Shown in pieces: positions 1,855 to 61,100 of a stretch of DNA of 64,000 bases. A program made the translations under genes and the position numbers. The stretch lies in the NCBI RefSeq assembly GCF_051622035.1, contig NC_135361.1, forward strand, positions 3,353,001 to 3,417,000, read 5' to 3'. Source of the DNA: Arctopsyche grandis. Lineage: Eukaryota > Arthropoda > Insecta > Trichoptera > Hydropsychidae. The first letter of the stretch is position 1. Every line of letters begins with the position of its first letter. A model generated the notes under the pieces. It saw only the letters and a list, made by a program, of their open reading frames with translations, did not search any database and was not told the origin of the DNA.

Positions 1855-2296
1855 TCTAATATATAATTTCGAAAGAGACTTTGTATGTAACATTGGTTGG
1901 TTGGTTCGTTCGTTGACGACACGTTCGATTTTTTTTTTTCGATTCATAGGCGCCGATTCGATTTTTTCGATTCAAAGGATTTAAAGTCCCCGGGGGAAAA
2001 GGCGCCAAGAATGCAGGCCGCCGGAGTCGAAGCTCTAGGGGGCGAATCCTCCGGGGGCAAATCCCTAGGGGGCGCAGGTGCCAGATTCTGGTATACATAT
2101 AATTTTGAAAGAGACTTACTATATATGTTTGTTTGTTCGTGACAGTCAATTTAATAAAAAAAACAAATGAGTATTCAAATAAATTTATATAAAATAAAAC
2201 TATTCAAATAAATTTAATAAAATGTTAACTATTAGATTAGTCATGTTTAAGCGGTTTATATAACAAATACCGAGCGAAGCCGGGTAATACAGCTAG
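1855..2296 (+). mobile_element. Helitron-like non-autonomous element, family A
   Basis: It starts with TC (TCTAATATATAATTTCG) and ends ACCGAGCGAAGCCGGG...CTAG followed by T. The TC start, the CTAG end, the short hairpin close to the 3' end and the lack of terminal inverted repeats fit the Helitron pattern. The middle (about 1985-2085) is GC-rich and made of degenerate GGGGGCGAA-type units, a short form of the array seen at 7160..9575. It has no Rep/helicase gene, so it would depend on an autonomous partner. Confidence 0.6.
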
Positions 2297-4641: not shown

Positions 4642-4862
4642 TCTAATATATATAATTTCGAAAGAGACTTTGTATGTATGTTTATTTGTTTAGTTCGTAG
4701 AATCCGTGACGTTGAATTTAATAAGAAAACAAATGAATATTCAAATAAATTTAAATAAAATGAAACTGTTCAAATATATGTAATCAAATGTTTACTATTA
4801 ATTTAGCAATGTCAAAGCGTTTTATATTACAAATACCGAGCGAAGCCGGGTAAAACCACTAG
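4642..4862 (+). mobile_element. Helitron-like non-autonomous element, family A
   Basis: A short copy with the TCTAATATATATAATTTCG start and the ACCGAGCGAAGCCGGG...CCACTAG end followed by T. It has no GC-rich core, showing that the core is optional in this family. Confidence 0.6.
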
Positions 4863-6204: not shown

Positions 6205-6509
6205 TCTATATATAAAAAAAATTAATGTATGTGTGTGTGTGTCTCGAATAGGCTCCTAAACCACTGAACCGATTACGATGGAACTTTCAGGATTTGTTGT
6301 ATGCATGTCTGGGAAGATTACTGTGACAAAAAATCTTCCCAGAAACGGGAACGGAAACGGGAAAAACGGGAAAGAGTGTGACTGCAACGCAATAATTTCA
6401 AATGTGTTCGCTGCCTGCGTTTGTCTGACAGATGGGAACGGAAACGAGAACAGGAACGGGAACGGGAATGCGATATTGTGGCATTGCAACGCATGCCGGG
6501 TTCAGCTAG
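6205..6509 (+). mobile_element. Helitron-like non-autonomous element, family B (copy 1)
   Basis: It begins TCTATATATAAA, ends GCCGGGTTCAGCTAG and is followed by T. The middle holds hexamer-like GGGAACGGAAAC repeats. The 5' part contains the recurrent phrase AGGCTCCTAAACCACTGAAC. No protein-coding capacity. Confidence 0.55.
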
Positions 6510-6880
6510 TATATATGTATATAAAATTGAATGTCTGTTTGTTTGTCTGTCTGTCTCGTATAGGCTCCTAAGCCACTGAAACGATTACGATGGAACTTTC
6601 AGGATTTGTTGTATGTACGTCCGGGAAGCTTACTGTGAAAAAAAAACCGGAAAAAACCTCTTAATAATAATATTCGTAATTACGATTTTACCGACGCGAA
6701 AGTTTGAAGCGCCGTTGTGTAGTTAAGGAAATGTGTTCGTTGGTAACTATGTTACCAGTTGGTTTATGACGACACGGCTTGAAGAGACGTTGTTGAGTTC
6801 CAACCATTACTTGAAACGGGAACGGGAACGGGAATTGCATGCCTTATTCTGGCATTGCAACGCGTGCCGGGTACAGCTAG
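6510..6880 (+). mobile_element. Helitron-like non-autonomous element, family B (copy 2)
   Basis: Directly adjoins copy 1 in the same orientation and ends GCCGGGTACAGCTAG before T. It shares the GGCTCCTAAGCCACTGAAAC phrase and a shorter GGGAACGGGAAC run. Two copies in tandem suggest insertion into the T left by the first copy. Confidence 0.5.
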
Positions 6881-6989
6881 TAATATATATTTACAGGGCT
6901 TTATTTGTCATATATTTAGTACTAGCTGTATTACCCGGCTTCGCTCAGTGTTTATAATATAAACCGCTTAAACATGACTAAGCTAATTT

Positions 6990-7155
6990 AATTAAAAAAA
7001 AAAAAAAATTAAAAAAAAATTTAAAAATTAAAAAAAAAAATAAAAAAAAAATAAAAAAAAAATCAAAAAAAAAAAATTAAAAAAAAATAAAAAAAAATAA
7101 AAAAAAAATTAAAAAAAAATTTTTTAAAAAATCAAAAAAAAAAATCAAAATTTTT
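6990..7155. repeat. A-rich low-complexity tract
   Basis: Runs of A broken by single T or C bases sit between the 3' hairpin and the minisatellite of the large Helitron-like element. Confidence 0.85.
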
Positions 7156-7159
7156 TTTT

Positions 7160-8000
7160 GCCTTCTAGGGCTTCGCCCTCGGCGCCCCCCTGAGCCTTTG
7201 CCTTCTAGGGCTTCGCCCCTCCACGCCCCATGAGCAATTGCCGTTTAGGGCTTCGCCCCCCTTAGTTAATGCCTTTTAGGGCTTCGCCCCTCCGCACCCC
7301 CATGATTAAATGCCGTCTAGGGCTTCGCCCCCCTTAGTTAATGCCTTTTAGGGCTTCGCCCCCCGCGCCCCCAAGATTAATTGCCGTTTAGGGCTTCGCC
7401 CCCCTTAGTTAATGCCTTTTAGGGCTTCGCCCCTCCGCGCCCCCATGATTAAATGCCGTCTAAGGCTTCGCTCCCATGATCAGTTGCCTTTTAGGGCTTC
7501 GCCCCCCACGCCCCCAAGATTAATTGCCGTTTAGGGCTTCGCCCCCCTTAGTTAATGCCTTTTAGGGCTTCGCCCCTCCGCGCCCCCATGATTAAATGCC
7601 GTCTAAGGCTTCGCCCCCATGATCAGTTGCCTTTTAGGGCTTCGCCCCCCGCGCCCCCAAGATTAATTGCCGTTTAGGGCTTCGCCCCCCTTAGTTAATG
7701 CCTTTTAGGGCTTCGCCCCTCCGCGCCCCCATGATTAAATGCCGTCTAAGGCTTCGCCCCCATGATCAGTTGCCTTTTAGGGCTTCGCCCCCCGCGCCCC
7801 CAAGATTAATTGCCGTTTAGGGCTTCGCCCCCCTTAGTTAATGCCTTTTAGGGCTTCGCCCCTCCGCGCCCCCATAATTAAATGCCGTCTAAGGCTTCGC
7901 CCCCATGATCAGTTGCCTTTTAGGGCTTCGCCCCTCCGCGCCCCCATGATTAATTGCCGTCTAGGGCTTCGCCCCCCTTAGTTAATGCCTATTAGGGCTT
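7160..8000. repeat. GC-rich minisatellite with 143-bp higher-order unit
   Basis: About two dozen subunits of 30-45 bp, nearly all carrying GGGCTTCGCCC, which folds as GGGC-TTC-GCCC (minus strand GGGC-GAA-GCCC). The subunits are ordered in a 143-bp higher-order unit repeated near 7414, 7557, 7700 and 7843 (exact 143 spacing). Confidence 0.9.
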
Positions 8001-9575
8001 GCGCCCCATGAGGCTGGGCCCCCCGGGCCCCCTACGGGGCCCCACGGGGCTGCGCCCCTTGTGGCGCCCCCTTTTGAGCCCCATGGGGCTGCGCCCCATG
8101 AGGCTGGGCCCCCCGGGCCCCCTTCGGGGCCCCACGGGGCTGCGCCCCTTGTGGCGCCCCCTTTTGAGCCCCATGGGGCTACGCCCCATGAGGCTGGGCC
8201 CCCCGCGCCTCCTTCGGGGCTTCACGGGGCTGCGCCCCTTGTGGCACCCCCTTTTGAGCCCCATGGGGCTGCGCCCCATGAGGCTAGGCCCCCCGGGCCC
8301 CCACGGGGCTGCGCCCCTTGTGGCGCCCCCTTTTGAGCCCCATGGGGCTGCGCCCCATGAGGCTGGGCCCCCCGGGCCCCCTTCGGGGCCCCACGGGGCT
8401 GCGCCCCTTGTGGCGCCCCCTTTTGAGCCCCATGGGGCTGCGCCCCATGAGGCTGGGCCCCCCCGGGGCCCCACGGGGCTGCGCCCCTCGTGGCGCCCCC
8501 TTTTGAGCCCCATGGGGCTGCGCCCCATGAGGCTGGGCCCCCCGGGCCCCCTTCGGGGCCCCACGGGGCTGCGCCCCTTGTGGCGCCCCCTTTTGAGCCC
8601 CATGGGGCTGCGCCCCATGAGGCTGGGCCCCCCGGGCCCCCTACGGGGCCCCACGGGGCTGCGCCCCTTGTGGCGCCCCCTTTTGAGCCCCATGGGGCTG
8701 CGCCCCATGAGGCTGGGCCCCCCGGGCCCCCTTCGGGGCCCCACGGGGCTGCGCCCCTTGTGGCGCCCCCTTTTGAGCCCCATGGGGCTACGCCCCATGA
8801 GGCTGGGCCCCCCGCGCCTCCTTCGGGGCTTCACGGGGCTGCGCCCCTTGTGGCACCCCCTTTTGAGCCCCATGGGGCTGCGCCCCATGAGGCTAGGCCC
8901 CCCGGGCCCCCACGGGGCTGCGCCCCTTGTGGCGCCCCCTTTTGAGCCCCATGGGGCTGCGCCCCATGAGGCTGGGCCCCCCGGGCCCCCTTCGGGGCCC
9001 CACGGGGCTGCGCCCCTTGTGGCGCCCCCTTTTGAGCCCCATGGGGCTGCGCCCCATGAGGCTGGGCCCCCCCGGGGCCCCACGGGGCTGCGCCCCTCGT
9101 GGCGCCCCCTTTTGAGCCCCATGGGGCTGCGCCCCATGAGGCTGGGCCCCCCGGGCCCCCTTCGGGGCCCCACGGGGCTGCGCCCCTTGTGGCGCCCCCT
9201 TTTGAGCCCCATGGGGCTGCGCCCCATGAGGCTGGGCCCCCCGGGCCCCCTTCGGGGCCCCACGGGGCTGCGCCCCTTGTGGCGCCCCCTTTTGAGCCTC
9301 ATGGGGCTGCGCCCCATGAGGCTGGGCCCCCCGGGCCCCCTTCGGGGCCCCACGGGGCTGCGCCCCTTGTGGCGCCCCCTTTTGAGCCCCATGGGGCTGC
9401 GCCCCATGAGGCTGGGCCCCACGGGGCTGCGCCCCTTGTGGCGCCCCCTTTTGAGCCCCATGGGGCTGCGCCCCATGAGGCTGGGGCCCCACTGGGCTGC
9501 GCCCCTTGTGGCGCCCCCTTTTGAGCCCCACGGGGCTGCGCCCCTTGTGGCGCCCCTGGCGGGGCCCCATGAAAC
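8001..9575. repeat. GC-rich 90-bp minisatellite with 609-bp higher-order repeat
   Basis: Units of 90 bp, with 79-80 bp variants, contain GGGGCTGCGCCCC (a GGGGC-TGC-GCCCC fold) and GGCGCCCCCTTTTGAGCCCC. Seven units of 90, 90, 90, 79, 90, 80 and 90 bp make a 609-bp block at 8001..8609 that is repeated at 8610..9218. All reading frames stay open because the sequence has few A/T-rich codons; the ORFs are judged incidental. Confidence 0.9.
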
Positions 9576-9687
9576 TACTCGCTTTGCGCCCCCGCGGGGG
9601 TGAATCCATTGAAACGAAAAAAACAAATCGGCGCCCATGGATCGAAAAAAAAAAAATCGAATCACGTGTTCGATGACGTCACCGATC

Positions 9688-9742
9688 TACGGACGACGAC
9701 GACGACGACGACGAAGACGACGAAGACGACGACGACGACGAC
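9688..9742 (+). repeat. (ACG)n trinucleotide run
   Basis: About 17 near-perfect ACG units, with a few AAG units, lie inside the large Helitron-like element close to its 5' end. The run yields a poly-threonine/lysine-like frame that is not a gene. Confidence 0.9.
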
Positions 9743-9787
9743 CAAGGATATTTACATACAAAGTCTCTTTCCAAATTATAGATTAGA

Positions 9788-9852
9788 TTAGATTCGCCAT
9801 GCTTAAGCTGTTTATATTACAAATACTGAGCGAAGCAGGGAAAAACAACTAG
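9788..9852 (+). mobile_element. Helitron-like family A, 3' end only
   Basis: Only the last 65 bases of a plus-strand copy are present: GATTCGCCATGCTTAAGCTG, GAGCGAAGCAGGG and a final CTAG before T. It abuts the 5' end of the large minus-strand copy, so the compound has a 3' terminus at each side. Confidence 0.6.
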
Positions 9853-10228
9853 TATTCTATATAATATAATTTGAATATAATCTTTTCTAATAAAAAACTT
9901 GACAAGAAGTGTGGTACCGGCACCTTTTCTATACCAAAAAAAAACCCTGTACATTTATAATAATCGAGTTGTATCAACTTGGGCAATTGTACATACATAC
10001 TATTGACATATAAATATTATACATTCATATATGTATGAGGGCTATTTGATATTGTTAAGTATATATGTATGTATGTATGTACATATAACGCGTCCTTAGA
10101 ACGCAATAGTGATAAGCCCTCAATTATTCAGAGCGGCGTTTAAAAATGACTATAATATTTTCTACTCGTGTTTTAGAAAATAATTCAAATATGATATGAA
10201 ATTAAAGATTTATATGTATGTATAATAT

Positions 10229-21966: not shown

Positions 21967-22085
21967 GCCAACGACCATACCACGTTGAATACACCGGTTC
22001 TCGTCCGATCACCGAAGTTAAGCAACATTGGGCGCGGTCAGTACTTGGATGGGTGACCGCTTGGGAACACCGCGTGCCGTTGGCC
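21967..22085 (+). rRNA. 5S ribosomal RNA, copy 1
   Basis: 119 nt from GCCAACGACCATACCACG to GCGTGCCGTTGGC; the two ends pair to form helix I. CGGTTCTCGTCCGATCACCG, GAAGTTAAGC and GGATGGGTGACCGCTTGGG are standard 5S sequence and include the internal control region. A T8 run follows at 22088..22095. The gene is identical to the copy at 26399 as far as I can read. It looks functional. Confidence 0.96.
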
Positions 22086-26398: not shown

Positions 26399-26517
26399 GC
26401 CAACGACCATACCACGTTGAATACACCGGTTCTCGTCCGATCACCGAAGTTAAGCAACATTGGGCGCGGTCAGTACTTGGATGGGTGACCGCTTGGGAAC
26501 ACCGCGTGCCGTTGGCC
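26399..26517 (+). rRNA. 5S ribosomal RNA, copy 2
   Basis: 119 nt, same sequence as the copy at 21967, same strand, with intact terminal helix and internal promoter and followed by a T6 run. About 150 bases downstream also resemble the downstream flank of copy 1 (AAATTATAATCTAATAT-type, TTTTCAAA, TTTAATAAAATAAACAAA), so the duplicated unit was larger than the gene. The genes have stayed alike while the flanks diverged. Confidence 0.96.
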
Positions 26518-26887: not shown

Positions 26888-27050
26888 ATACTTACCTGGC
26901 GTAGGGGACACCGTGATCATGAAGGCGGTTCCCCCAGGGCGAGGCTCTTCCATTGCACTTCGGTTGAGCTGACCCTTGCGATTGCCCCTAATGCGGGCAA
27001 CTCGGACGCGTAATTTTTGATAGCCGGGACTGCGTACGCGCTGTCCCGAC
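26888..27050 (+). ncRNA. U1: U1 spliceosomal snRNA
   Basis: About 163 nt, beginning ATACTTACCTGGCGTAG. ACTTACCTG is the sequence that pairs with 5' splice sites. Stem-loop I has GATCATGAAGG (the usual form is GATCACGAAGG, the U1-70K site). Stem-loop II has CCATTGCACTTCGG, the U1A-binding loop. TAATTTTTGATAG holds the Sm site, and the last hairpin GGGACTGCGTACGCG ends CTGTCCC. All domains are in order and full length, so it looks functional, though the loop I change leaves room for a variant or recent pseudogene. It starts 371 bases after the second 5S gene on the same strand. No upstream PSE could be fixed by eye. Confidence 0.93.
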
Positions 27051-27133: not shown

Positions 27134-27829
27134 CAGCGTTGCCTAACCTGTGGTACGCGGTTGATGGTTGGTGGTACGCGAAAAAAAACCAGTAATGGCA
27201 GACATGCAGGAATGAATGATTTATAATCATACAAATAGAAATATTTTTTATATCTAATATATAATTTGAGAACTTCGAAAACAAAATAAAATTTCAATGA
27301 CGACAATTCAATTGGTTAAATATTATATTTTTTCCGATTAAAATGAATTTAATAAAAAAACAAATGAATATTTACTATTAGATTCGCCATGTTTAAGCTG
27401 TTTATATTACAAATATTGAGCGAAGCCGGGTAAAATAACTAGTAATTAATAAACATTATCTTAATTAATCATCGTTGACGTCAATATGTACAGTCGATGA
27501 TCGAAAATCTGGCAATCGATACATTTCCTCAGATCCGGCATGGATTTTGCAGTGCATTTTTAAATTTACCGTGTTCTCGCTCCAATAAACAACTTCAATT
27601 TGACACTTGAGAACAGTTCGATAATAATCTTTAATGCTCCAGATAAAATTGACAGTACATATGATTAGAAAATTAGATTTTTGGAATTTATGTATCGAAA
27701 ATGATCAAACTGAAGTATTTGAAACTTTACATAATTTCTTATCTGAAAACAAGAGTCGTATGTCTCGGGATATTTGTATTTCTTTTAAAAATAATTGAAT
27801 ATTTAATAGGGCTGAAATCGTCTTTTACG
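27134..27829 (+). mobile_element. Decayed hAT element fragment
   Basis: Starts CAGCGTTGCCTAACCTGTGG, a hAT-like terminus. A plus-strand piece at 27664..27798 reads IRKLDFWNLCIENDQTEVF and then ETLHNFLSEN, which resembles the middle of ZBED/GTF2IRD2-type hAT transposases. A Helitron-like element is inserted. Another hAT-like start, CAGTGTTTCCCAAAACC, is at 27830. Confidence 0.5.
27253..27442 (+). mobile_element. Helitron-like non-autonomous element, family A
   Basis: 190-bp copy: TCTAATATATAATTTGAG start, TTGAGCGAAGCCGGG...AACTAG end before T. Inserted in the hAT remnant. Confidence 0.6.
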
Positions 27830-37100: not shown

Positions 37101-40100
37101 TACGATGTTTGTAATATCTGACCATAGATGTCAGATATTGTTTAGATTTACATGTATCTATGTAATAATTATGTGGACCAGGAAGGCTCATTTGGGGTTT
37201 ACCTGTTAAGCCTTCCTGGTATATTTGTATATATGTATGTAAAAATAAAATAAAATATTAGCACAACACAGACCGGCAAGTACGGAAAGTATTCTTAGAT
37301 ACCCCTACATATGTACGTATGTACATACATATGTATATGGACCAGTGGCCACTCGCCTATATAAGCTGCGGGGCTGCAGCCCTTCTAGTATACATATAGT
37401 AAATATGCATGATATTTTTGCCTTCCATATGAGTTGGGGAGCTGCAGCCCTTCTAGTGTATTACATGTTATTTTTGTTTGCATTAACCAACGGCGTGGAC
37501 AGTGGTTAGAATATTATGCTTGCGAGCAGAGTGGTCATGGGTTCAAGTCTCACTAGAATCCCATTGCTAGCCAGATCTTGGCTTGTGACTCCAGGTCGAT
37601 CGTTCCTTATCAGAGTTTTTTCAATTTTTCTGATTTTTATTGAAACGGTTCCTGTGAAATTGTTATCTCCTTTCCTATGTCTCTTGCTAATTTCTAGCTA
37701 TTCAGGTTTGCAAATTTGATTATAAAATCGTGCAAAAAATTTTCCATAGATGTCACTGTGGATGTTTGTATGAATTCGCATTGTATAAAATATATTGATT
37801 GAATCTGTATAAGTGCACTCCATTAGGTTTGAAAAAAAAAGAGCAAAAAAGCGTGGTTTTTCTAAGAAATTAACAATAGTAAACCATTTTTTGTGTGAAA
37901 AGAATCCTTTCACGCCGAAGTCTATGTATGATTTTTTCCAAAATTAGACCCTTCAACTAGCACGACAATTCATCATCTATGTCTATGTTTAAAATAAAAT
38001 ATTTAATTTCAGCAATATTCAAATGAATAATAAAATATTTTAATTATTTAATTTTACTAAAAAAATTGATATCTTACATACAATTTAAACTCAAAATATA
38101 AATGATCGTAGAAATAGTCAATAAAAATTCAAATCAAAACACCAAATACAATACTAGATATAACGTACGTATACAAATAAATTTTGTAAAGCGGTACAAT
38201 TCGAACTCTGAAAATTGTGTATGTTTTTTTTTTGGTTTGTAATGGCGTTCGTTTTAATTTATTATTTAAACCGAGAAACGTCACTCATCGGCTTGGTAAT
38301 TTCCGGTTAATTTTGCGTTCCCCCTTTTTATGGGTCGCACTGGCGAAAAGCGAGTGGCGACTGTTCAATCGCCGTTCAAGATGGCGGCTAAATGTCAACA
38401 ATGATTAAATTTCAAGATTCAAACCAGCGATTTTTATATCGGACGATGGTATAATAGAATCGTTGCGGTCACCATCGTTTCAATTAAAATTTGATTAATA
38501 TCCCCGGAGCGACGTTTCGGCTCTCGCCAGAGTAAAAGAAAGACGAATTTCAACGCTAATTAAGACGTTCGTGGCGCCCTCTATACCGGGGGAGGATTTT
38601 TAATACCCCCTCTCGTTGTAAACCTTTTACGAAGGCTCTCGGTTTCATCTACCCCGTAAAATTTATGGAGCAAACAATCTTTCCTGGGTAACACGAATCC
38701 AATTTTCATGTAGATTTTTCGCAACTTGAACGCGTCGCCCATACATCACAAAGAAAATTGAGTTTTTTTTAAAGAATATTTATTACGGTACTTTCACGGT
38801 TGATGATACCAAACAACGGTGAAATATTCTTGTACATCTGAAGACAAATTCTACCCAACATTACTCAAACTCTAATTTTAACACACTTAGTAAACGTTAC
38901 AGTTGTTGGCCAATATAATTTCAATTTTAAAATAAAAATAATACACTAGTTGATGGCAAATATATTTGTATTACTTAGTAGTGAGCGGAAGCACCATCGA
39001 GGGCACAGTAGTTTTCGGTAATGTCATAAGTGGTCAATAATTGTAAAATGATAAATAGCCCACATATAAAATAATCTCAGTGATATAGTGCCAACACTAT
39101 CTAATATATAATTTGGAAAGAGACTTTGTATATATGTATGTATGTATGTAACCTTCGTTCTTTGGGTCGTAGAAATCCGTGACGTCATCGAACAAATAAT
39201 TCGATTTTTTTCGATCTAAAAGATTCGAAGTCCCTGGGGGAAAATGCACCGAGGGCGAAGCCCTAAGGCGCGGAGCCTGGGGGGGGGGGGGAAATACTTC
39301 AGGGGCGAAGCCCTAGGGGGCGCAGGTGCCAAATTCTGGTATACATATAATTTCGTATACATATAATTTTTTATAAAGACTTACTATATATGTTTGTTTG
39401 TTCGTGACAGTCAATTTAATAAATAAAAAAACGAGTATTCAAATAAATTTATATAAAATAAAACTATTCAAATAAATTTAATAATTTTTTTTTCTTTTTA
39501 AAGTAAATTCAGTTGCAAAATGTTTGGCTATAGTTGATCTGATGTAGACGAGAACCGAGCATGCTGTCGCATTCGTGCAATGTATTGTAACATTGTAAAG
39601 ACGTAAAATAATTTCTTTATCTTTATTAAATTATTTCTTATTAAACTATATAATATTATTACAATATAATTCAATGCAAGGTCTTTAATAATATTATTGT
39701 AAGTTTTGCTGTACATAACATGACGTTGACAATTACTTTTATCGTCCAAAATATATAAATTTCCATTAATTAAAAATATATACGTATTCCATAAATAAAT
39801 TAATAATATCAACAACTTACATACGTATTTTATATTAAAATTTTATTTATGTAAATATTTTAAAATACGAAACACGAACTCAATACTAATAAAAAAATAA
39901 AAGTCAAACTCTACCGACCGCTTCGCATGAACAATGTTGTATTTCTTTACCAAAATGCAATGCGAAACTGAAACGAAATGTAATCGGCCATTACAGGTCG
40001 AGTGGGGGGTGAATGCAATAGCATGTACATTTAACGTAAGTCTCATGCTAGATCGGTTCCAAATGTAAAAAAAAAATGATAATTTAGATGTTGGTTTTAA

Positions 40101-49100: not shown

Positions 49101-52100
49101 AAAGATAAAGCCTCGATTCCCTTCTCCATCTTCTCCTTTTATAGCCCCCCTCCACACACCCTCCACAACCCCCTTCTCCATGTTTCGCTTTTCAGTCGAG
49201 AAACTGGCTTTCATTGTTCCGATTTCTCCAGCGTGAAATCGCCTCGTAAAAACGTGACCCGATTGCCCTTTGCGAGTGTCGAAATGTGCAATTTTCAAAC
49301 AGCCCAAACACGCACTGGATATTCAGATTGGATCGGAAGGGTTTCCAAATAGATCAGACCAACAAAACACTATCAAAATAGCATTTTGAATCATATTGAA
49401 AGAGTGATAGTAAGTATTTTTTTTCTTCTGGAAACCCATTGTTATCTAAATCGGATGACACCTCATTATTTACTCGATATATTAATGTATCCAATGCTAT
49501 ATTCTATATGTACATATTATTTTTATTTATATTATACCAGGAAGGCCTGACAGGTAAGCCCCAATCCGATTACATACACATGTAAATTGAAACAATACCT
49601 GACATCTACATATGTATGGTCAGATATTACAAACATCGTATAAATACGTTCAATATCATTTTTCATGTAGCGATACGAATTTTCACATTCAATAAACAAC
49701 CACAGAGATATCAATGGTGAGAAATCAGGCGAAACCTGAGATATAAAAATAACTTTAATAATAAGGTTTGCAACGGAAAATTGAAAAAAAGGAAAAGCCA
49801 ATTTTACAGGAGCCGTTTCAATGAAAATCAGAAAAATTGGCAAATTCTGATAAGAAACGATTGATCCGGACAAATCAAGGTCTGGCCAACAACGACTCTA
49901 GTGGGAATCGAACCCGTGACATAATTGCACGAAATAATTCAACACTCACCACTAGACCACGCTGCTGGTTAAATATATAACCTTTATAATGGTTAGCATA
50001 ATATGCTTTCGAGCAGAGTTGATACGGTTCGATTTCCACTAGTAGCTGTTGGCCAGACCTTGGTTTGTGACTCCAGGTAGATCGTTTCCTGTCAGATTTT
50101 GGCAATTTTTTCTGATTTTCATTGAAACGGCTTTTTCCAATTCATGATTCGAAGTCCCCGGGGGCGAAGGCTCTGAGGGCGCAGGCGCCAGGGACGCAGC
50201 CGCCGGGGGCGAAGCTCTAGGGGGCAAAGGCGCCGGATTCTGGTATACATATAATTTCGAAAGAGACAGTATATGTATGTTTGTTTGTTCGTGACAGTCA
50301 ATTTAATAAAAAAAAAAGAGTATTCAAATAAATTTATATAAAATAAAAGTATTCAAATAAATTTTAATAAAATGTTTACTATTAGATTAGTCATGTTTAA
50401 GCGGTTTATATTACAAATAACGAGCGAAGCCGGGTAAAACCACTAGTAGTATATGTATAATTTAGAAAAAGGCTTTGTATGTATGTATATTTGTTTGTTT
50501 GTTTGGTTCGTAGAATCCGTGACGATCAATTTAATAAAATTTAATAAAATGTTTACTATTAGATTGGCCACGTTTAAGCGGTTTATATTACAAATATTGA
50601 GCGAAGCCGGGTAAAAACACTAGTATTATACATATAAACGCTTCATTATACATTAAAGTAAACGAGGTGATATTACGGTTTAAAATTCCTTGAAAATAAT
50701 TTCGAAACATCTTTACAATAAATATTTACACACATTTATGTTAAATATTTGACTATGTAGAACGCTTAATTTATTTACGAAAACACTTAAAAACAGCTGT
50801 CTGAAAATGTTAAATCTGAACAAAGGTTTTCCAGAAACTCTTGTTCAAAATATTGAACCTATATACATACATATGTATGTACATATAACATTTGAGCTAT
50901 TACGATCGGTGGAAACTGATCTCGCAAAAACATAATTCCAGAAATAACCTCGAATTGAAGAAAATCAATTTCAGACACCGATACCATCGATATGATTAAT
51001 ATCATTAATTATCGCCATTTTCCAATAATTTCCCGTACAAACGTACGTTAAATATTACGCATTATTTCATGGTACAGGCAATTTAGCACTGGCTGTGAAA
51101 TATAATTGGGTCAATGTCTTGACACATGAAATACGATAATCGGATTAGCGATATGGGTCAGATTACCCTCAATTATAAGCGGGTTCGGTTTATTATTATA
51201 ATATACAATAAATCAAATTATATCCACACACACCGTCTACATTAACAATATCCATTATTCATATAAACTAAACTACATTGCGGTACACACAACTACATAG
51301 GTACAGTCCCCTTACCTATAAAACGCTTCCTCACAACTAGTGTTCCTTCTCGAGAATTTCTCGAAAAAAATGCCAAATTGAGAATTCTCATTTCTTTAGA
51401 AATTTTATAATTAAAATATTATAAAACAGTTTTTATTATATAAAAATATTTTCAATTATTTTACTGCCCTTTATAAAGCTGCATTTGAAAGGGCGGGTTT
51501 ATACCCAATGTGCATACTTCTTAGAAGGTTTTAAATACATTCTGATGCTATATTCTTCTTTAAGCTCATAAATGGTTTCCTTGATTGTTCTGATTTACTG
51601 AATAAGGTTAATTTCAGAATCCCAGTTCGATACCCTAGACGCGTTACACTCTTTTCACTTGATCCTTTCAATACTAATTCCCAAAAATATTTTTATCTGC
51701 AGCGCGTTTATCGTATGTTTAACGGAGAGCTGAATGAGGTTGATCTGTTTGGTATTTCCCTACATCAATTCAGGTCTAACATCAAGAGAATCTTGACCGA
51801 TTGATTCATTTTTTCTTCTATTCTATTTTTCCAATATTTCCATTATTTTTATACTTTAGTTTAGTTATGTAATGTGCTATTTAATCATATTATAGCTTTC
51901 ATTCCTTTCCATTTCATTTGTTTATTTTGTATTTACCTTTTTCATTTGTTTTTTATATTTGTAAATTTCAATTTCTTCTTATATTCTATCTTATAACCTT
52001 TTCCAAATATTTTAATACTATAGTTTAATTATGCAATGTACTACATATTTTGTCATGCCTTTATTCTTTACTTTTTAATTTGTTTTCCTTATATTTATCT

Positions 52101-58100: not shown

Positions 58101-61100
58101 TTTCAAAGACATTTTATTTTAACGTCGTTTTTATAGATTCAACAAGTTGTTTTGCCCGGCTTCGCTCAGTATTTGTAATATAAACAGCTTAAACATGGCG
58201 AATCTAATAGTAAATATTGATTTGATTTTTTATTGAATTTATTTGAATCGAAAACAAAATCGAATCGTCGTCATAGAAATTTTGACGTGTTTACGAAGTT
58301 CTCAACCATACTTACATATGTATATACTTGCATACATACATATTCTCTTTCTAAATTATATGTTAGATTGCAGACAATTATTATTACCGTACCATTACGG
58401 AAAACTATTGAATGTCGTGAGAAAGAGCACAGATGGGTTAAAATTCAACACGCAATGTGTTTCGTATCAAATTTGGAGCAAAAAAATTCAATAGTGTTTC
58501 CTATTAGTCATATGAATAATTTTAAGAAGACTTTTAATATGTTTATTTGAAAAATGAAACGCCGAAACTAGTCCAAATAACCCCAATATCAATCTGATGA
58601 CTTTGATATTCTATATATGTATGTACCTATTTGCATTTGTTATATGTAATGTAAATGGACCTTTATATGTAAATACGTGAATATTCAATATATTGTTTTG
58701 TTTTTTAATTCGACAAAAAATTCAACGCTAGAGTGTATTTTATGTATTGTAAGATTGATTGTTAAATAGCGTTCGATAATACTGGCGCCACATCCTAATT
58801 ACTTTAGTTTGACTAAGATTAATAGTGTTCTCTCCCTCGTGGATCGCTTTCATTGTTATCTGTATCCTTCGATTCATTTCATTTTTATTATATTCTTCGT
58901 TGTGTTTGTATATACATATATAGGGGTACGAATAATTTATACGGGCCGTCGAATTCGATTTTAGCCCTTTTTATTTGCCTAATGTCTAAGAATGTGAGAC
59001 AAAGCGAAAAAGGGATGTGGCATTTGATAGTAATAATCCCTATAAAAAGAATCCTATCTGATTTAAATTATTTTATGTTTCATTAAATGTATGCACTCAC
59101 TGGTTGATGTATGTATGTACATATAACATTGAACAGAAGTATTGTAAGCATTATAAAAAGCAAATACAAATATCAATTAACATCCAAAGAGACATCTATT
59201 GTCAAATTTGCAGCATTTTACACAATTCAGCAAAATTCCAGATTCTGAAAACTCGAAATTTGCGAGAAATGGGTAAGGGTTGCCAATTTGTTGGAAATTT
59301 GTTAAATGAAAATCAGAAAAATTGGCAAAATCTGATAGGAAACGATCGATCCGGAGTCACAAACCAAAGTCTGGCCAACAGCTACTAGTGGGAATCGAAC
59401 CGTGACTACTCCCCTCGAAAGCACAATATACTAAGCACTAGTCCACGCTGTTGGTATAATATTATATATAATATATGTTTAATTATTCACGATGAAACTT
59501 TGTTTATTTGCATAATGTAATATAAAGTTGTAAGCCTCATAAATCCAGTTTTGATAAAAAATATATTATATCTTTATATACATATATTTTTTATTGTTAC
59601 AAATCAATATACACTCGTCATTACAGATTTGCTCCAATGCGACGGGTGCACGTTAACGAAATACAGAATACATAAACAATCAGAAATCAGAAATACAGTA
59701 ATACATATACAATCAGAATATATAGCATATAACAATTAATCAGAAATAATAATCATAGAGACATCGATGGATTATTTTTAGATTTTTTTTGTGTACAATT
59801 TTTATACATATAATAAATACGAAATTATAGAGATGTCTATAGAGATATCTATAGATTTCAGATTATTGTGTATAATTATTACAAATTATACACAGGCAGA
59901 TTTTGTGACAACTGGAATAGATCTAATACCAAGTTTCAGCAATGATCAGATAAAATTGGCAAACTCTGATAGAGAAACGATCGATTTAGAGTCACAAAAC
60001 CCCCAAATCTAACCAGCAGATGGCGAGGACTCGAACCTTTGACCTCAGTGGTGCTAAATATATACGCTACCACTAAGCCAAACTGCTGGGTATATATGTA
60101 CATACATATATTCTAAATTCACTACTGTGTAACTTTTAAAACAAGAAATGTAAAAATAATATAAAAAGGGTGATAAAATACAATATGAAAGCCTGGAGAG
60201 AATGTACATAATTTTTACGAGCTTTACAAGTTGGTGTAACGATTTGTTGTAATATTATCTAGATATTTTTAGTATTTTTTTAATCAGTAAATCGCATTTA
60301 TTACAAAACAGTGGGTTTTGTAGTAAATGCGATACAGTACATCTATGGAGAAAACCTTTTTAGTAGCATTTTTTTGTACAATCGGCGAACCACGAGACAC
60401 TGAACAACTCAAGGTTTGCAATAGAAAATCGCAGAGGTAAAGTCAATTTTACAGGAACCGTTTCAATGAAAATCAGAAAAATTGGCAAATTCTGATACGA
60501 AACGATCGACGTGGAGTCACAAACTAAGGTCTAGCCAACAGCTGCTAGTGGGAATCGAACCGTGACCACTCCACTCGAAAGCATAATATGCTAACCACTT
60601 AGTCCACGCTGCTGCCGATTATACAGATTACTACAAAAAATTCGAATCTTAGATGTGACTGTTGTCTAAATGTTTACGAAAACATTAATTGAGCAATAAT
60701 ATAAACTACACTACTGCATTACTTTAATATACAAAGTTTCATGTCGGAAAGATATTTCAGAGATACCAAAACGATACATTTCCGTTGCACAATTTGCACG
60801 AAAGTGCATCGATTTTGTTTATATATGTATATATTATATATGTACGCAATTCGTATTATATAATGCAAATGTAGGTATAATATTTCGATACATTTCTTTT
60901 ATTTTGTTTTAAATTTTATTATATAAAAAAAGTAAATCAAGATTTTCAGATGAACTTTAACCGATGATGAGATCATCTCAGCGTTAAAATAAATACATAC
61001 AGATATACATACACACATATAGATATGTATACATACATATATGTATGGGAATTTGCTTTTGTGTGCGTGTATGTACACAAAGCGCAAGCTAATTTTATTC

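Follow-up and report, generated by a model that had tools for sequence, protein, structure and literature searches.

A layered GC-rich minisatellite forms the core of a canonical, non-autonomous Helitron in the trichopteran Arctopsyche grandis

We report that a GC-rich block of tandem repeats in the genome of Arctopsyche grandis (assembly GCF_051622035.1; 475.7 Mb in 189 contigs) is the core of a canonical Helitron, which is inserted at an A/T site and has a paralogous empty-site match. We are largely confident that this Helitron belongs to a young-looking subfamily that is non-autonomous and present in high copy, and we propose that its core was amplified stepwise. The block lies in a stretch of 64,000 nucleotides, hereafter the window, that spans positions 3353001-3417000 of contig 7 (NC_135361.1). 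An initial annotation of the window, made from the letters alone, had described the block as the core of a Helitron-like element of a family called A; the evidence below sharpens this to a canonical TC...CTAG element.

Results

The GC-rich block belongs to a complete Helitron inserted into an older copy

Both ends of the element are exact (Table 1): the 5' end lies at 9787 (TCTAATCTATAATTTGGAAAG) and the 3' end at 6922 (GAGCGAAGCCGGGTAATACAGCTAG). On the element strand the site reads A/TC...CTAG/T, with slashes marking the element boundaries. When the flanks of the 2866-bp Helitron were joined, they matched two other family copies (27368-27390 and 58195-58217) at all but 1 of 23 bases, and the mean number of matches in 100 shuffles was 0.00. 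Because the joined flanks match paralogous copies, we conclude that the Helitron inserted into an older copy of its own family. The 3' end of this older copy was left at 9788-9863, which gives the locus the look of an inverted repeat. The initial annotation had set the core between AT-rich family A ends; this is correct for the element's own ends at 9787 and 6922, but the right-hand end that resembles an inverted repeat belongs to the older copy.

Table 1. Positions of the Helitron, its parts and related family copies in the window.
Feature	Position in window	Strand	Description
Complete non-autonomous Helitron	6922..9787	minus	2866 bp; TC...CTAG; A and T flanks
5' head	9552..9787	minus	236 bp; TCTAATCTATAATTTGGAAAG..., GTC-type microsatellite, short GC-rich stretch
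Tier 2 array	7995..9551	minus	1557 bp; 90-bp units, mostly of 39+51 bp modules; 77.8% GC
Third tier	8000..9251	minus	Doubled 609-bp block of 90-bp units; 643 identical bases running at offset 609
Tier 1 array	7157..7994	minus	838 bp; 143-bp units of 31/40/41-bp modules; 57.9% GC
3' tail	6922..7156	minus	235 bp; 11.9% GC; T-rich tract, then unique 3' end
Older copy of the same family, 3' remnant	9788..9863 (end approximate)	plus	Taken as insertion host
Older family copy with short GC-rich core	1855..2296	plus	3' end matches the young subfamily's exactly
5' part of family copy with short GC-rich core	39099..39340	plus	
Family copy with short GC-rich core	50143..50446	plus	Start as given in the initial annotation

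Two other classes of element were considered and rejected. A TIR transposon or MITE was dismissed since the apparent right-hand inverted end is the remnant of the older copy and the joined flanks are without a target-site duplication. Membership in the Helentron/DINE class, which uses a TT or T-rich target, was dismissed on the A/T site and the CTAG end of the family; Helentrons and DINEs are not known to have a CTRR end. Just left of the element, at window positions 6460-6880, we also observed the ends of another Helitron-like family (...GCCGGGTTCAGCTAG and ...GCCGGGTACAGCTAG), together with GGGAACG-type repeats. Elsewhere in the window, a pair of equally scoring 5S rRNA genes and one U1 snRNA fall inside 5.1 kb (21967-22085, 26399-26517 and 26888-27049).

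The core consists of two arrays and a doubled block

The element runs from its head through the 90-bp array (tier 2) and the 143-bp array (tier 1) to its tail. TRF reported a period of 143 at 7183-8007 and a period of 90 at 7995-9425, in agreement with the units named in the initial annotation, and the 143-bp spacing at 7414, 7557, 7700 and 7843 is exact in the sequence. Most of the 31-, 40- and 41-bp modules of tier 1 start with GGGCGAAGCC. That the core is very GC-rich within an AT-rich window was likewise borne out, with a GC fraction of 0.579 in tier 1 and 0.778 in tier 2 versus 0.337 in the rest of the window. Although both layers are present, the two-layer description was incomplete: it had overlooked a third tier, a 609-bp duplication. 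This doubled block of modules is present in the window copy and in 0 of 27 other parsed elements. In the 3' tail, a GCGAAGC motif is located 12 bases ahead of CTAG.

Long open frames in tier 2 (557 aa at 7992-9665 on the minus strand and 534 aa at 7999-9603 on the plus strand) were rejected as genes. Their length on either strand follows from the GC-rich 90-base unit, which is 3 x 30 bases and stop-free in those frames. The long open frames of the 90-bp array are a trap for gene prediction.

The array is linked to the Helitron family across 20.4 Mb of contig 1

Genome-wide, the exact 30-base 5' end occurs 972 times (preceded by A in 676 of the 972), the 26-base 3' end 1545 times, with a shorter pattern that fits older copies too (e.g. 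1855-2296), and a marker where the two arrays meet 736 times. Counts of exact patterns miss diverged copies, and those of 5' ends, 3' ends and junctions use different patterns and are not summable. From the window and loci L001-L029 we parsed 28 complete elements, six short loci being without one; these loci were picked by best-scoring array hits, a choice that is biased to young, array-rich copies and under-samples old or array-less ones. Every one of the 28 ends in CTAG and has T as the next base, and the 5' motif is exact in 26 and carries 1-2 changes in 2; as the elements were detected through end motifs allowing 2 changes, the flanks are independent evidence and the motifs are not. The base before TC is A in 20 elements, G in 4, T in 3 and C in 1. 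Three of the eight elements not preceded by A (all G; two in L011 and one in L012) are head-to-tail junctions, and the other five are unexplained beyond apparent 5' extensions. In L010, L012 and L025, a short TCT-rich stretch precedes the TC at which the 5' end normally lies, as though the 5' cut had fallen a few bases outward. Tandemly repeated family 5' ends were also seen, at 46-bp spacing in C1:27060073-27060194 and at 31-bp spacing at positions 4163-4194 of L016.

We then compared array and ends within the first 20.4 Mb of contig 1, a contig with dense repeats of TTAGG, a common arthropod telomere repeat, close to its end. All 59 boundary markers in this region are accompanied, on their own strand and no more than 6 kb away, by at least one exact family end (a 5' end at 56, a 3' end at 58 and both at 55), and from density a same-strand 5' end is expected by chance near about 1% of markers. 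Furthermore, each of 20 loci of 9 kb around the best hits to the 90-bp unit contains at least one complete element. Since every marker in this region lies beside family ends, the array belongs to the Helitron family. The initial annotation had noted that its reading would suffer if the block occurred without family A ends or arose as a local assembly artefact; the first was not seen among these markers and loci, and the second is unlikely given that identical modules recur across dozens of loci, with the array lengths of single copies resting on one assembly. It would be possible to view the block as an independent satellite or minisatellite captured by Helitrons, or its tiers as products of assembly, given the tandem structure, the GC content and the general liability of long tandem arrays to misassembly. 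However, the 59 of 59 markers beside family ends and a module order that repeats in unlinked loci make such an origin extremely improbable.

The same region of contig 1 holds 99 exact 3' ends, of which 48 are accompanied by a 5' end and the marker, 4 by the marker only, 15 by a 5' end only and 32 by neither. The exact marker is missing at 47 of these 99 ends; therefore array-less or diverged relatives exist, as they do in the window near 4642, 27253 and 50447, where core-less copies had been proposed and are present. Short GC-rich cores are likewise present in the copies near 1855, 39100 and 50143, as proposed. An intact 5' end was not found for the 50143 copy, the stretch at 50244 being an end-like one behind the core, and this copy is directly followed by the core-less copy that reaches 50623. 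A 15-bp period persists in an old core at 2035-2073 (TRF).

Core length varies among elements with near-constant 3' ends

Among 35 fully read elements (the 28 above and 7 more) we found 34 distinct lengths, ranging from 1440 to 4796 bp with a median of 2150. On contig 1, the 48 elements in which the marker is accompanied by both exact ends have 48 distinct lengths (1214-4423 bp). These values uphold the earlier proposal that the core expands and shrinks within one family. When the last 60 bases of the 35 elements were compared with the consensus, 32 had 0 mismatches, two had one and one had eleven. Strings of modules show a common inherited order in many unlinked loci, together with local gains and losses of blocks. 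Variants of the 5' head and of the last module occur in all four combinations (15, 8, 7 and 4 of the 35 elements, with another head type in 1 of 35), a finding that calls for exchange across the array unless the two markers, both of them small changes, arose repeatedly, as they could. Length change may take place during transposition or after insertion.

Head-to-tail concatemers suggest repeated insertion at resident copies

Exact CTAG/TC junctions were found 164 times, compared with 0 for a reversed-pattern control (a shorter 5' piece was used here) and about 0.02 expected for random AT targets, a rough figure based on an AT dinucleotide frequency of 10%. Across five concatemers, 8 of 8 adjacent pairs have unlike heads, a pattern suggestive of repeated insertion at the 5' ends of copies already in place. 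Between 14 and 70% of 553 non-adjacent pairs are as close as, or closer than, adjacent pairs, and identical heads occur in only 21 of the 553; the comparison is a modest one, for heads hold a microsatellite and may change fast. In one locus (L015), an element of the young subfamily ends exactly at the start of a diverged family copy.

The concatemers, and much of the array diversity, could instead stem from single multi-round rolling-circle events on one template. Such events would account for 164 exact junctions against 0 reversed and about 0.02 expected, and in one four-member concatemer members 2 and 4 do have an identical head. Yet all eight adjacent pairs differ in their heads and non-adjacent pairs are often equal or closer, and, modest as this test is, we consider a single-template origin improbable. 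A circular intermediate recombining with a resident copy would be expected to yield exact junctions and mixed members as well. Repeated insertion at resident 5' ends is the reading that the unlike heads of adjacent members suggest.

Hairpins are abundant in the core and biased to one strand

The initial annotation had emphasized hairpin density. A 270-base stretch of tier 2, folded as single-stranded DNA, gave z values of -7.3 and -6.6 against shuffles for the two strands, whereas a 287-base stretch of tier 1 folded no better than shuffles (z +1.2 and +1.7). Triloops were in excess in both tiers, with 20 stem-4 triloops in tier 1 (shuffle mean 4.0, maximum 14) and 51 stem-5 triloops in tier 2 (shuffle mean 9.9, maximum 20); hairpins with stems of 4 or 5 and loops of 4 or 5 showed no excess in tier 1. 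The emphasis on hairpins is thus justified for tier 2 folding and for triloops in both tiers, but not for the folding of tier 1. The cores of 28 elements hold 1522 stem-4 triloops in all, and 1217 of these take the form C-GNA-G on the element strand. This orientation matches that of the 3' GCGAAGC motif, and three older short cores of the window together carry 13 instances of CGNAG on the element strand against a single one on the opposite strand. Hairpins of the GNA-loop or GCGAAGC type are very stable DNA mini-hairpins. Despite the GCGAAGC motif, two stretches of this 3' end and three older 3' ends folded no better than shuffles with the parameters used.

We considered whether the array may be functional, such that many C-GNA-G mini-hairpins on the transferred strand would let array-bearing copies transpose better. 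They could do so by pausing or holding the Rep-helicase, by protecting single-stranded DNA or by aiding second-strand synthesis. The predominance of C-GNA-G on the element's strand, the same orientation of the 3' motif and the strand bias in older cores are all consistent with such a role, and in the available part of the report on Helraiser a 3' hairpin is the transposition terminator (PMC4778049). However, the units derive from few ancestors and their counts are not independent, so that shared descent explains them equally well; moreover, core-less older copies have spread too, and the 3' ends fold at shuffle level. Frequent premature termination at internal hairpins likewise found no support, as exact 3' ends (1545) outnumber exact 5' ends (972), a comparison in which the 3' pattern is shorter and fits the 1855 copy too. 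A functional array therefore seems unlikely, if not negligibly so. Somewhat less likely still is a combined scheme in which a terminator-like C-GNA-G array would aid the copying or holding of single-stranded DNA and Rep would insert the element at the 5' nick of resident copies, with mixed concatemers reshuffling the arrays.

Rep loci of the genome

The genome contains 16 Rep-domain matches. The family 3' end was present in none of ten Rep loci (about 3.1-3.5 kb each) or three longer Rep stretches, and among the Rep loci read no autonomous partner with family ends was found. AT-rich 15-base matches to the family 5' end at Rep loci, with 2-3 mismatches, were taken as chance. In one locus (L042, C13:5358000-5367000) an 836-aa Rep frame stands next to a PIF1 match; a weak Ulp1-like match there falls short of the cut-off, and the locus is possibly an autonomous element of another Helitron group. 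At C3:20695959-20738225 (L043, L031-L034 and L036-L038), a Helitron Rep domain is repeated in tandem at an exact spacing of 9032 bp in four places. This 9032-bp unit holds a 355-aa frame that appears reverse-transcriptase-like by eye, and it is without family A ends.

Discussion

Helitron-type elements with internal tandem repeats have been described previously. According to the parts of the reports available to us, DINE-TR1 and other Drosophila DINEs carry central tandem repeats, of about 150 bp in DINE-TR1, and some of these have expanded into satellites (PMC9957191, PMC4067079). The present family resembles them in being a high-copy, non-autonomous rolling-circle element whose middle holds tandem repeats that can expand, but DINEs, as characterized in those parts, are Helentrons with a TT or T-rich target and sub-terminal inverted repeats, whereas this family has TC and CTAG ends at an A/T site (PMC9957191, PMC4067079). 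Its core also differs from that of DINEs in comprising two GC-rich arrays and a 609-bp block, and no end-free array was seen in the first 20.4 Mb of contig 1.

Lepidopteran Hel-2/BmHel-2, from the accessible portion of its description, is likewise an insect non-autonomous Helitron with 5'-TC, 3'-CTAG and an internal tandem repeat of variable length (PMC4344730). Hel-2/BmHel-2 also has a 3' stem-loop, to which the GCGAAGC motif of the present family, in a 3' end that folds at shuffle level, may correspond. The repeat of Hel-2/BmHel-2 is a (CTGT)n microsatellite in a consensus of 250 bp, in contrast to the GC-rich minisatellites and the 1.4-4.8 kb of the present family (PMC4344730). A perfect CTAG/TC head-to-tail junction between unlike members is known from adjacent maize Helitrons, where the available text reads it as consecutive insertions; that report gives one case and cites several in a bat, compared with 164 exact junctions in the present genome (PMC2267711). 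Bat Helraiser/Helibat1 shares TC...CTAG ends, exact head-to-tail junctions (circles there) and possibly a hairpin near the 3' end (the terminator there). It is, however, autonomous and has a 19-bp palindrome hairpin, where the present family has a short GCGAAGC motif, and the part of the report at hand makes no mention of a core of tandem repeats (PMC4778049).

In a literature search by title and start of abstract, the present element was undescribed among the matches listed. Window positions 6900-9880 gave no match to phage records, and two exact patterns were absent from viral contigs. The array had been called unusual at the outset, and this is fair as regards its size, layering and hairpin make-up, but not as regards its kind, since Helitron-type elements with central tandem repeats were already known, as the sources cited in part above indicate (PMC9957191, PMC4067079). 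The element is a new, young-looking, large-cored Helitron of a known kind.

How might such a core have arisen? We propose that growth began from a short ancestral core, rich in GC and made of units of roughly 15 bp, that older copies still display, and that it proceeded in steps, through about 40, 72 and 143 bp, and through 90 and 609 bp. Replication slippage, together with unequal exchange or template switching between copies, would drive this growth, and the likeliest setting may be the hairpin-rich single-stranded DNA that is copied in rolling-circle transposition. On this model the array would be filler that is tolerated and carried by the element, and cargo or a coding function would not be required.

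With several hundred near-identical copies in one genome, the length of each array and the order of its modules can serve as bar codes. The growth of Helitron internal repeats and the formation of head-to-tail tandems are thereby testable in a single genome.
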